Positions 1,969 through 24,138 of a stretch of DNA of 64,000 nt are shown here, piece after piece. Each line of letters begins with the position of its first letter. Position 1 is the stretch's first letter. The stretch comes from Alphaproteobacteria bacterium (lineage in GTDB: Bacteria; Pseudomonadota; Alphaproteobacteria; RF32; CAG-239). Location of the stretch: assembly GCA_015062585.1 (NCBI GenBank), contig SUUJ01000003.1, positions 1 through 64,000 on the forward strand, given 5' to 3'. The notes under the pieces were generated by a model, which was given only the letters and a program-made list of their open reading frames with translations, was not told the DNA's origin and ran no database searches. The translations under genes and the position numbers were made by a program.

Positions 1969-2043
1969 TCCGGCTTAGCTCAGCGGTAGAGCAATCGGCT
2001 GTTAACCGATTGGTCGCCTGTTCGAATCAGGCAGCCGGAGCCA
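1969..2043 (+). tRNA. tRNA-Asn (GTT)
   Basis: TCCGGCT...AGCCGGA acceptor stem, anticodon GTT in CGGCTGTTAACCG, T-loop TGTTCGAATCA, encoded CCA. Confidence 0.95.
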
Positions 2044-2515
2044 ATAAAAAAACCACCCTTTTGGGTGGTTTTTTTCATTAGTCCTTGCTTGCCTGCGAAC
2101 AGGCGGCCAACGGGAGCCTTGTTCGGAGTGGATAGTTGGTGAAAACAAACATTGAGCTTAGCAACTTGCTTAGCGAAATGTGCAGTTTGAACCTTACGAC
2201 ACGAGGAGGACCCGCTTGCGGGAGTACCCAATCAGGCAGCCGGAGCCAATAAAAAACCACCCAACAAGGTGGTTTTTTTATTGGTCCTTGCTTGCCTGCG
2301 AACAGGCGAAGCCTGTGAAGAATCAGCTCGAGGATAAAAACAACAATTGCTCTTGTTGTTTTTACCACAAGAGGCGTCGTTTTGTTATTTTTTTGAGCCG
2401 GTGTAAATCGGCGATAAAAACATTACAAAACAAGTGACCGACGCGCACTTGGCGAACAAAGTGAGCCTAGTAAGCTAGAAGCCGGAGCCAACCCAACAGG
2501 GTGGTTTTTTTTATT
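2025..2515. repeat. tRNA-Asn 3'-end plus terminator repeat cluster (three graded copies)
   Basis: AATCAGGCAGCCGGAGCCAATAAAAAA(A)CCACCC...GGTGGTTTTTTT...GTCCTTGCTTGCCTGCGAACAGGCG occurs at 2025-2107 and again at 2230-2310; degenerate third copy GCCGGAGCCAACCCAACAGGGTGGTTTTTTTTATTGGC at about 2481-2518. Confidence 0.9.
2044..2076 (+). terminator. Rho-independent terminator after tRNA-Asn
   Basis: AAAAAAACCACCCTTTTGGGTGGTTTTTTT. Confidence 0.85.
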
Positions 2516-21086: not shown

Positions 21087-21400
21087 AACCTTTTACATAG
21101 CCATGTCAAAAGTCAAACCTATGCAAAAATTTACATAGGTTCTTTTTCTGCTCAAAAAAGGCTGAAATTTGCTAAGTTATTGAAAAAATAAAAAGCAAGT
21201 TCGAAGATGTTGTAAAATAGGTGGCTGGATTAGGTACTCTCGCTCAAAATTTCGCGGGTCCTCCTCGCGTCGTAGGGCTCGCACGGCTTAAAATTGTGCT
21301 CACCAACTATCCGCTCCGAACCAAGTTGATTCGCCTTAAAACCACTCTCAATCCAACAAAAAAATCCTCCATGAAAGGAGGATTTTTTTGTTGGCTGGAG
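21087..21400. repeat. About 310-bp composite repeat carrying a tRNA-Gln 3'-end fragment (left copy)
   Basis: Aligns along its length with 23758-24070; contains GTTCGAAGATGTTGTAAAATAGGTGGCTGGATT then GGTACTCTCGC...GCGGGTCCTCCTCGCGTCG...CCAACTATCCGCTCCGAACC, ending in CCAACAAAAAAATCCTCC...GGAGGATTTTTTTGTTGG. Confidence 0.93.
21354..21395. terminator. 18-bp perfect-stem hairpin with A/T tracts (bidirectional terminator-like)
   Basis: CCAACAAAAAAATCCTCC-ATGAAA-GGAGGATTTTTTTGTTGG. Confidence 0.85.
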
Positions 21401-21548: not shown

Positions 21549-23447
21549 ATGGCAAAACAGGAAGCAAAAACAGATTTATGGGTGTATGATTTATTAAAAG
21601 AAGCTGGTATTTGTCTTGACCCACAAGGATGTTCAATTAAAGAAGTTGATGAAGCACTAAAAACTGCTTCTAAAAAAGGTACTGGTAATGTTGGTTATCC
21701 TGAATATGTCGGTGCTGTCAAAGATTTTTTGCTTGTTATAGAAGATAAATCTGATTTATCAAAACATGTAAAGTATAACGAAAAAGAGTTAATATGTACT
21801 GAAACAAAGTCTGTAACAGATTATGCAGTCAATGGGGCTTATTTCTATGGTAAGCACCTTATAAATAATACTCACTACAAAAAGATTATTGCCTTTGGTG
21901 TATCTGGTAATGAAAAACATCATAAAATAACACCTCTCTTTATAAATGAACGTGAATATTGCAAAGTAATGCCTGATGTTGAATCTTTCTATATCTTCAA
22001 TGAAGAAAACATAGATGAATATTACACTAGAGAAGTTTTAGGCGAAAATACCGATTTACAGAAAGAAACTACTGAAATTCTTAAGTTTGCAAAGAATCTA
22101 CATGAAGATTTACGCAATTATGGAAACTTGCAAGATACTCAAAAACCTCTTGTTGTATCTGGTATATTACTTGCTCTTAGAGAGATTGAGAAAGGCTCTT
22201 TTAATCTTGAGCAATTAAACGGTGATGATGTAGATACAGACGGTAACAAGATTTATGCAGCTATTGATAAAAATCTTCAACGCTCAAAAGTATCACCAAC
22301 AGTCAAGAAAGATAAACTATTAACACAATTTGCAGTCATAAGAGATACTAAAATCCTTAATGAAAAGAACGAAACATTAGGAAAAACACCTCTTAAATAC
22401 TATGCAGAACAAATTTATGATAATATCTACAAAACTATAAAATACACAAAAACAGCAGAAGATTATTTAGGCCGATTCTACGGTGAATTTATGAGTTATT
22501 CTGGTGGTGATGGACAAACGTTAGGTATTATTCTTACTCCAAAACATATTACTCAACTGTTTTGTGATTTGGTAGATTTAAAACCTGATGATGTCGTGCT
22601 TGACCCTTGTTGTGGTACAGCTGGATTCCTTATTGCAGCAATGCATAATATGTTGAAGAAAGCTAAAGATGATAATCAGAGGGAAAATATTCGTAAAAAC
22701 CAACTTCATGGTATTGAACTTCAACCATATATGTTTACTATTGCTACATCAAATATGATTATTCGTGGTGATGGTAAGAGTAACCTTGTAGATGAAGATT
22801 TCTTAAGGTGTAAAGATTCAGAATTACAATTAAAAGGTGCAACTGTCGGTATGATGAATCCACCATATAGTCAAGGTTCAAAAGCTAACCCCTCACTTTA
22901 TGAAATAAGTTTTGTTGAACACTTGTTAGATTCATTGGCCGAAGATGGTAAAGCGATTGTAATTATTCCTCAATCTTCTTTAACTGGTAAGACAAAAGAT
23001 GAGCAAAACTATAAGGAAAGCATATTAAAACATCATACCTTAGAAGGCGTTATAACTTTAAGTGAAAATACATTTTTTGGAGTAGGTGTGCATACTTGTA
23101 TTGCAATTTTTACTGCACATAAACCTCATCCCGTTAACAAAGAGTGTAAATTTATAAATTTCAAAAACGATGGTTTCAAAGTCGCTCCGCACGTTGGATT
23201 GATAGAGACAGAATATGCTAAAGACAAGAAACAACATCTACTTGACGTGTGGTTTGATAGAATTAATGCCCCAATTGATTTTATAGTTAAATCTACAATT
23301 AAACCAGATGATGAATGGCTTCACTCTTTTTATTATTTTAATGATGAAATTCCTGATGAAAATTACTTTGAACAAGCAATAACAGATTACTTAACATTTG
23401 AATTTGAAAAAGTTATCATCAGCCGAAAATTGAATAAAGTCTTTTAA
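21549..23447 (+). CDS. Type I/IIG-like restriction-modification protein: nuclease-like (HsdR_N-like) N-terminus plus N6-adenine DNA methylase; C-terminus probably truncated
   Basis: N-terminus ...DFLLVIEDKSDL (possible PD-(D/E)xK); DVVLDPCCGTAGFLIAAMHNMLKKA and MNPPYSQG (N6-MTase motifs I and IV). No specificity domain in the ORF. Confidence 0.88.
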   Translation: MAKQEAKTDLWVYDLLKEAGICLDPQGCSIKEVDEALKTASKKGTGNVGYPEYVGAVKDFLLVIEDKSDLSKHVKYNEKELICTETKSVTDYAVNGAYFYGKHLINNTHYKKIIAFGVSGNEKHHKITPLFINEREYCKVMPDVESFYIFNEENIDEYYTREVLGENTDLQKETTEILKFAKNLHEDLRNYGNLQDTQKPLVVSGILLALREIEKGSFNLEQLNGDDVDTDGNKIYAAIDKNLQRSKVSPTVKKDKLLTQFAVIRDTKILNEKNETLGKTPLKYYAEQIYDNIYKTIKYTKTAEDYLGRFYGEFMSYSGGDGQTLGIILTPKHITQLFCDLVDLKPDDVVLDPCCGTAGFLIAAMHNMLKKAKDDNQRENIRKNQLHGIELQPYMFTIATSNMIIRGDGKSNLVDEDFLRCKDSELQLKGATVGMMNPPYSQGSKANPSLYEISFVEHLLDSLAEDGKAIVIIPQSSLTGKTKDEQNYKESILKHHTLEGVITLSENTFFGVGVHTCIAIFTAHKPHPVNKECKFINFKNDGFKVAPHVGLIETEYAKDKKQHLLDVWFDRINAPIDFIVKSTIKPDDEWLHSFYYFNDEIPDENYFEQAITDYLTFEFEKVIISRKLNKVF

Positions 23448-23687
23448 TGTTCCTTGCGGGATATACCAACGTTTTGAGTTGTTTTCGCCAATTTCTTCAA
23501 CAACTTGAGGAAATCGACTTAATATCATATCTCGCATGCGTTCGGCAGTTCTTCTTGATACTTGAAAGCGATTCATAATATCTGACAAACTAATTCCTCC
23601 GCGAGTTGATTGCATCCAAATCGCTAAATCTAACAAATCAAAAGTCTTTTCATATGCCATAATATTCATCCTATATAAAACATACAT
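23391..23687 (-). pseudogene. Truncated HTH (WYL-type) transcriptional regulator, N-terminal fragment
   Basis: MAYEKTFDLLDLAIWMQSTRGGISLSDIMNRFQVSRRTAERMRDMILSRFPQVVEEIGENNSKRWYIPQGTL...; typical N-terminus of WYL regulators, which are normally about 300 aa. Last codons are antisense to the methylase gene. Confidence 0.65.
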
Positions 23688-23757: not shown

Positions 23758-24070
23758 AACCTTTCACATAGCTATGTCAGAAGTTCAACCTTTGCGAATT
23801 TTTGCAGAGGTTCATTTATATACTAAAAAAAGGCTGAAATTGGTTAAATTATTGAAAAATATAAAAAGCAAGTTCGAAGATGTTGTAAAATAGGTGGCTG
23901 GATTGGGTACTCCCGCTCAAAAATTCGCGGGTCCTCCTCGCGTCGTTAAGGTTCGCACGGCTTAAAATTGTGCTCACCAACTATCCGCTCCGAACCGAAT
24001 TGATTCGCCTCAAAACAACACTATCCAACAAAAAAATCCTCCATAAAAGGAGGACTTTTTTGTTGGCTGG
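23758..24070. repeat. About 310-bp composite repeat (right copy), abutting tRNA-Gln
   Basis: GGTGGCTGGATT at 23893-23904 duplicates the tRNA-Gln 3' region at 24071-24082; shared core with 21087-21400. Confidence 0.93.
24023..24066. terminator. Terminator-like hairpin downstream of tRNA-Gln
   Basis: CCAACAAAAAAATCCTCCATAAAAGGAGGACTTTTTTGTTGG. Confidence 0.8.
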
Positions 24071-24138
24071 GGTGGCTGGATTCGAACCAACGAATGACGA
24101 TACCAAAAACCGTTGCCTTACCACTTGGCGACACCCCA
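24064..24138 (-). tRNA. tRNA-Gln (TTG)
   Basis: Reverse complement TGGGGTGTCGCCAAGTGGTAAGGCAACGGTTTTTGGTATCGTCATTCGTTGGTTCGAATCCAGCCACCCCAGCCA. Confidence 0.94.

Follow-up and report, generated by a model that had tools for sequence, protein, structure and literature searches.

A structured core inserted at the T-loop of many tRNA genes: candidate miniature mobile elements in Alphaproteobacteria

Why should one and the same noncoding sequence lie behind different tRNA genes of a genome, joined each time to a tRNA 3' end at the same nucleotide of the T-loop? This question is raised by the window analyzed here, a stretch of 64,000 nucleotides from an alphaproteobacterial genome (G000; 1.5 Mb, 20 contigs). 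tRNA genes are favored docking sites for mobile DNA, and an integrase normally fits one or only few tRNAs. The initial annotation had described three copies of the core in the window, fused to the 3' ends of two different tRNAs, and had suggested a small mobile or recombination-generated element with the T-arm as its junction. All three copies were confirmed by sequence, and the fusion at a common T-loop position was found to hold more widely, for at least 10 tRNA species. Both this range of tRNAs and a filled/empty pair at a tRNA-Ser gene support the proposed element.

Copies in the window and its genome

The 3' end of the tRNA-Asn gene (AATCAGGCAGCCGGAGCCA) is present at 2025-2043, within the tRNA, and again as an exact repeat at 2230-2248, with the core in between (Table 1). 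The Asn unit consists of the tRNA 3' half (2025-2043), a terminator (approximately 2044-2075), the complement of the 3' half together with a hairpin termed P0 (approximately 2076-2125), and the core (2125-2229). Following the junction logic of the filled/empty pair described below, we read the 3' half of the intact tRNA-Asn, from the T-loop onwards (2025-2043), as probably supplied by the element. At the tRNA-Gln locus, AATCCAGCCACC is located on the minus strand at 24071-24082 within the tRNA and again at 23893-23904 and 21220-21231, each time behind a core. Covariance model R1 gave eight matches in the whole genome, at tRNA-Asn (two loci), tRNA-Gln(TTG) (two), tRNA-Thr(GGT) (two, in tandem), tRNA-Glu(TTC), and tRNA-Gln(CTG). 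The second Asn locus is a tRNA-Cys/Asn locus that is cut by the contig end.

Table 1. Features of the two tRNA loci in the window that carry the core
Feature	Positions	Strand	Evidence
tRNA-Asn(GTT), intact	1969-2043	+	ARAGORN, Rfam
Asn unit, 205 bp	2025-2229	+	Sequence; covariance model R1
Type Ia structured core, GGAG...P2...P3...AGTACCC	2125-2229	+	R1 match 2121-2229, 126.5 bits; covariation
Displaced tRNA-Asn 3' end copy, exact 19/19	2230-2248	+	Sequence
Second terminator and second complement/T-arm-like segment (GCCTGTGAAGAATCAG)	2249-2326	+	Sequence
'Type II' structured insert, distinct from the core, then another tRNA-Asn end (AGCCGGAGCCA)	2327-2479	+	Boundaries approximate
Second Gln-type core, then tRNA-Gln segment 21220-21231	21232-21321	-	R1 match, sequence
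N6-DNA methylase gene, candidate cargo flanked by two cores	21549-23447	+	ORF; Pfam PF02384, E 4.3e-34
98-aa ORF between two core copies	23391-23687	-	ORF list; Pfam: no match
Displaced tRNA-Gln 3' segment AATCCAGCCACC	23893-23904	-	Sequence
Gln unit 1, 178 bp, with tRNA 3' half, terminator, complement and P0, and core (23905-23995)	23905-24082	-	R1 match, sequence
tRNA-Gln(TTG), intact	24064-24138	-	ARAGORN

No restriction subunit was recognized beside the methylase gene (21549-23447) in the stretch read, and the gene possibly belongs to a lone or broken restriction-modification system.

A folded core behind at least ten tRNA species

Throughout the family, a core of about 80-145 nt occupies the T-loop position TTCG/AAT (a slash marks the junction) behind at least 10 tRNA species. 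In tRNA orientation, the layout is TTCG/GAGYGGATAGTTGG...P2 hairpin...CCTTACGACRCGAGGAGGACCCGC...GCGGGAGTACCC/AAT..., with the adjacent tRNA's 3' half to the right of the second slash. Cores were found at genes for tRNA-Thr, Asn, Arg(TCT), Glu, Gln(TTG), Gln(CTG), Val, Ser, Lys, and Met; copies at tRNA-Leu(TAA) and tRNA-Arg(ACG) come from named MAG contigs. Spacing and flanks were tabulated for about 80 copies and tested on the 46 copies that have an intact tRNA a short distance upstream. On this basis, the core starts 61-87 nt past the intact tRNA (median 72.5, s.d. 5.7). In the 46 copies, the 19 nt 3' of the core match the 3' half of their own tRNA by 88% on average, and the best of the other tRNAs in the set reached 64%; the own tRNA was the best match in 41 copies, and 33 matched it in at least 17 of the 19 positions. 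This pairing of core and tRNA 3' end is not due to chance. The left side of the core carries tRNA sequence, too, namely the T-stem 5' strand. The duplicated 3' segment varies in length between copies. The tRNA copy on the left side is truncated at its 5' end and, in genome G024, begins at the anticodon stem. A few copies are located outside a tRNA context, and these lack the direct repeat.

The core covaries like a folded molecule. Covariation was detected both by RNAalifold and by counting pairs in an alignment not fitted to structure (covariation score 0.300 versus 0.136). In an alignment of 74 distinct copies, which was fitted to the structure model and therefore leans towards it, double changes were observed in 14 of 17 pairs, amounting to 170 cells versus 45 in shuffles and at most 29 in slid controls. 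Conserved letters are mainly found in internal loops and junctions, a pattern like that of folded RNAs, and the junction nucleotides are nearly invariant. The initial annotation knew of no named family of this kind, and the core indeed remained unmatched at the gathering level in Rfam 15, including group I and II introns; a relaxed threshold yielded only weak hits far below the gathering scores.

Hairpin P0 precedes the core in 32 of 62 distinct upstream regions, compared to 2.8 expected. The 3' strand of P0 corresponds to the T-stem 5' strand of the cognate tRNA, and the sequence further upstream is complementary to the tRNA 3' half. The 193-nt unit at tRNA-Ser (see below) folds as a chain of hairpins, in which a long H1 is directly followed by P0, P2, and P3. 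H1 begins at T-loop position 58, and its 5' strand is made up of the tRNA 3' half and the terminator. Relative to shuffled sequences, folding of this unit gave z-scores of -6.35 (DNA) and -5.63 (RNA).

The covariance model matched 31 of the 38 genomes of the genus and 84 of 170 genomes of the order, the latter in 14 of 17 genera. In a sample of the class, 7 of 395 genomes were matched, three of them from other families and again at tRNA T-loops. Moreover, the core was found on 17 named MAG contigs, titled uncultured Alphaproteobacteria, proteobacterium, or Pseudomonadota, from which the tRNA-Leu(TAA) and tRNA-Arg(ACG) copies come; the search pattern used here does not cover type Ia cores, and the 17 records are a lower bound on the distribution. 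Searches of phage, plasmid, and viral-contig collections gave no real copy. Three viral pattern hits (L034-L036) were rejected, as the remaining core is absent from them and the surrounding sequence is GC-rich and coding-looking.

Filled and empty sites and the spread of cores

Empty sites in relatives, which the initial annotation had named as a sign of mobility, were found at tRNA-Ser(GCT): this gene is filled in genome G002 and empty in G003 and G001. In the two empty genomes, the native terminator is located directly behind the tRNA (...CCA/CTTAAACCCTAGAGAAATCTAGGG...). The filled site reads ...CCA/TAAAAAAAAAGCTCCC...terminator...P0...core...ACCC/AATCCTGTACTCTCCGCCA/CTTAAACCCTAGAGAAATCTAGGG..., that is, a 193-bp unit followed by AATCCTGTACTCTCCGCCA and the native terminator CTTAAACCCTAGAG.... 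The inserted unit measures exactly 193 bp, is devoid of ORFs, and is composed of the tRNA 3' half, its own terminator, the complement, the T-stem hairpin, and the core; it thus holds both the tRNA tail and the terminator that the element had been proposed to carry. The displacement of the native terminator in G002 identifies the event as an insertion. Insertion of such a unit, about 170-210 bp long, takes place between tRNA positions 57 and 58 in the T-loop (TTCG/AAT); it rebuilds the whole tRNA and shifts the native 3' end and the native terminator downstream. Its presence at the same tRNA is patchy even between close relatives, as seen for tRNA-Ser.

A second pair is provided by the ppdK terminator, which is a plain hairpin in G002 and contains the core in the hairpin loop in G003; in G004 and G006, a P0-like hairpin without core is found at this position. 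In addition, several diverged copies occupy the loop of a dispersed palindrome in genome G108 (TTGCCGG...CCCGGCAA); in some of them, another insert is nested. Copies lacking tRNA 3' segments had been named as an argument against the proposed element: the cores behind tRNAs always switch at the T-loop, but a few diverged copies are indeed located in other hairpin loops. At three loci of G108 (L208, L210, L213), a palindromic insert (CAATTGCATTCGGCGTCGCGTGCC...) lies within the core, which itself lies within the dispersed palindrome, resulting in three hairpin-in-hairpin levels.

Among close relatives, the cores group according to the tRNA locus at which they lie, and many copies are therefore vertically inherited. 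Cores at different tRNAs can nevertheless be 88-96% identical, with cognate flanks in each case (Asn_G011/Gln_G029, 96%; Asn_G006/Lys_G040, 92%; Gln_G009/Glu_G009, 90%). Such similar cores at different tRNAs also occur inside one genome (Gln/Glu in G009, Asn/Ser in G012). This combination of similar cores and cognate flanks needs either core movement with target-matched flanks or conversion-driven core swapping.

In six cases, two directly oriented cores flank a segment of 1.3-6 kb. The genes on these segments encode the N6 DNA methylase of the window, an ankyrin protein, GIY-YIG nucleases, Fic and BRO-N proteins accompanied by fragments of a large serine recombinase, and, in one cluster, two tRNA-synthetase-like proteins and a peptidase S66. 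Such genes may have been carried by the cores or may only have been enclosed through recombination around them. The last-mentioned cluster, located between two tRNA-Glu cores of G003 (L082, 1582-6717), comprises genes for a MetRS-like and a class II synthetase-like protein, a peptidase S66 of the LD-carboxypeptidase/MccF type, and methyltransferases, and looks like a small biosynthesis or immunity cluster.

Possible mechanisms and the search for a mover

We consider it probable, at roughly 70%, that the units represent a family of miniature, noncoding, non-autonomous, tRNA-targeting mobile elements, which insert at the T-loop in folded form and are mobilized in trans. The unit starts with a copy of the tRNA 3' half including CCA, followed by its own terminator, and the complement of the 3' half closes the long H1. 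H1 is succeeded by the short P0, in which the T-stem 5' strand recurs as the 3' strand, and by the conserved two-hairpin core P2/P3, ending in ...GTACCC. Because the core covaries, the unit may well be recognized as a folded single strand. It would be moved by a recombinase supplied in trans, perhaps from incoming phages or islands, and the core could also enter the apical loops of other hairpins, as in the terminator and the dispersed palindromes. Copies would then duplicate in tandem, and longer gene-bearing segments would end up between them. Several observations speak against this reading. No mobilizing enzyme was found in G000 despite its eight core matches, many copies are vertically inherited, and the copies outside tRNAs lack the direct repeat. 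Moreover, a plain DNA integrase acting between tRNAs would bring along the wrong 3' half, yet the flanks are nearly always cognate.

Two further readings address these flanks. Tentatively, the element could copy its target: the folded core would recognize any tRNA T-loop hairpin, or another hairpin loop, insert after TTCG, and use the target tRNA as the source of its left end (H1 and P0). A single element could in this way enter many tRNA genes and leave each of them functional. We know of no integrase or transposon that copies its target in such a way. Copying could also take place at the RNA level, which we regard as unlikely. Here, the core RNA would become joined to the T-loop of a pre-tRNA, and the chimera, copied into DNA, would be written back beside the same tRNA gene, so that flanks would always be cognate; the fold-backs H1 and P0 would be traces of self-primed synthesis. 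The RNA-like covariation, the variable length of the duplicated 3' segment, the 5'-truncated tRNA copy left of the core, which in G024 starts at the anticodon stem, and the cognate flanks at 10 or more tRNA species despite similar cores are all consistent with this scenario, but G000 lacks RVT_1, and gene conversion or long residence at each tRNA could give cognate flanks as well.

For the favored trans-mobilized element, a mover would have to be supplied from elsewhere. The element itself contains no integrase, the 193-bp unit being too short and without a gene; a tyrosine integrase nearby was seen only at an island in G024 (see below). The trans-acting integrase envisaged by the initial annotation was not identified in G000: only two tyrosine recombinases were hit, one XerD-like and one XerC-like, with no dedicated integrase among them, and models of integron integrases, the enzymes that would accompany an attC cassette, scored far below the cut-off. 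No Y1 transposase (PF01797) was detected in G000, G002, G003, G004, and G009, no reverse transcriptase (RVT_1, PF00078) in G000, G002, and G003, and no IS110 DEDD recombinase (PF01548) in G000, with one hit over the cut-off among the 38 genomes. Tyrosine integrase, Y1, reverse transcriptase, and IS110 were thus rejected as resident movers, since they are missing from G000 apart from XerC/D. Likewise, ORF clustering over the fetched loci did not point to a carrier gene adjoining the cores, but gave mainly host genes conserved together with the tRNA loci.

Islands and prophages integrate at the T-loop of tRNA genes in so-called class II sites, for example mycobacteriophage Ms6 (PMC1762012), and displaced tRNA 3' fragments resulting from integration are common (PMC9897764). 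The units resemble these systems in T-loop insertion, in the direct repeat of the tRNA 3' end, in rebuilding the tRNA by the incoming copy, and in displacing the native end. They differ in being only about 200 bp long without integrase gene or ORF, in using one core for at least 10 tRNA species with an identity block that begins exactly after TTCG, in their folded, covarying core, and in occasional hairpin-loop sites outside tRNAs. The resemblance (direct repeat plus rebuilt tRNA) raises the question of whether the units are decayed attachment scars of ordinary tRNA-targeting islands or prophages with tyrosine or large serine integrases, the core being a leftover attP arm. In G024, a 420-aa tyrosine integrase adjoins the core at the end of an island of about 8 kb at tRNA-Val, and decayed large serine recombinases (3' parts with Recombinase and Zn_ribbon_recom domains) adjoin tRNA-Thr cores in several genomes (L083, L179, L052, L067, L080). 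But the direct repeat of the G024 island, which spans the tRNA-Val anticodon stem to the T-loop, fits equally well a later insertion into a tRNA-Val that already contained the unit, leaving this integrase as a mere lead to the mover, and the association with serine recombinases, the second lead, was seen only at tRNA-Thr. Moreover, neither uniform spacing nor a unit of hairpins placed end to end is expected from random decay, and the copies in ppdK and the palindromes lack a tRNA; scars therefore seem an improbable origin. The least likely reading is a fixed functional RNA, in which selection would hold the core behind tRNA genes as a regulatory or processing domain with the tRNA-like flanks as part of the working structure and mobility secondary or long past: nearly invariant junction nucleotides, strong covariation across genera, and the constant 61-87-nt spacing would fit, but not the patchy presence at the same tRNA among close relatives, the multiple copies and tandem arrays, or the copies in the ppdK terminator and dispersed palindromes.

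Other short elements share single traits with the units. Mitochondrial double-hairpin or repetitive hairpin-forming elements are short, noncoding, potentially mobile, and consist of adjacent hairpins (PMC2800124). The likeness is one of description: the units are equally short and noncoding with adjacent hairpins. Loops vary in the sponge elements, but in the units it is the internal loops and junctions that are conserved. To our knowledge, neither T-loop specificity nor a tRNA-restoring unit is known for the mitochondrial elements. Rickettsia palindromic elements are short palindromic repeats of alphaproteobacterial genomes and can be set beside the units by description only, both being short and palindromic; we know of no T-loop targeting by them. 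IS200/IS605-derived miniature elements and REP sequences have subterminal hairpins, a G-rich tetranucleotide before the hairpin, and insert without short target duplication. The units share the subterminal hairpins, a conserved GGAG before the hairpin, and the lack of a short target duplication, but G000 has no Y1, and their left hairpin consists of target tRNA sequence. IS110-type elements use a bridge RNA, a structured end with segments matching or complementing the target; the RNA-like structured end of the units also contains target-matching and complementing segments, but there is no IS110 recombinase in G000. The defining test of each known mobile family tested, an own or resident dedicated recombinase, was negative for the units, and they are therefore likened in their action to tRNA-targeting integrative elements but not classified among them.

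A single folded core of about 100 nt that enters at least 10 tRNA species and repairs each of them points to an unrecognized mode of T-arm recognition, which may rest on structure instead of sequence, and likewise to minimal mobile elements of a new class. The units explain many 'tRNA fragments' in these genomes, and as their structured sequence is defined and both filled and empty sites are at hand, the mover can be sought directly.

Other inserts occur in the same tRNA arrays. The 'type II' insert (hairpin...GTGACCGACGCGCACTTGG...AAGCTAGA) is found in tRNA-Asn arrays, in the window (2327-2479) and at L107, L109, L110, and L019, and similar inserts are present in other genomes of the genus. 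It joins the acceptor-stem end, not the T-loop, and a related sequence lies behind a tRNA-Thr array (L009). Further, unrelated inserts are located at tRNA-Asn (L023, L096, L114, L120) and tRNA-Ser (L229). Types III and V use the same T-loop junction as the core (TTYG/...CC/AATC or ATCC) and type IV a different one; one insertion system may be common to several insert families. A mirror case on the 5' side was observed in G000 (L009, 1556-1760), where a duplicate of the tRNA-Thr 5' end (GCCGCTATAGCTCAGTGGTAG) is located upstream of the intact gene with a hairpin-rich repeat in between, and L179 shows a similar tRNA-Thr 5' duplication.
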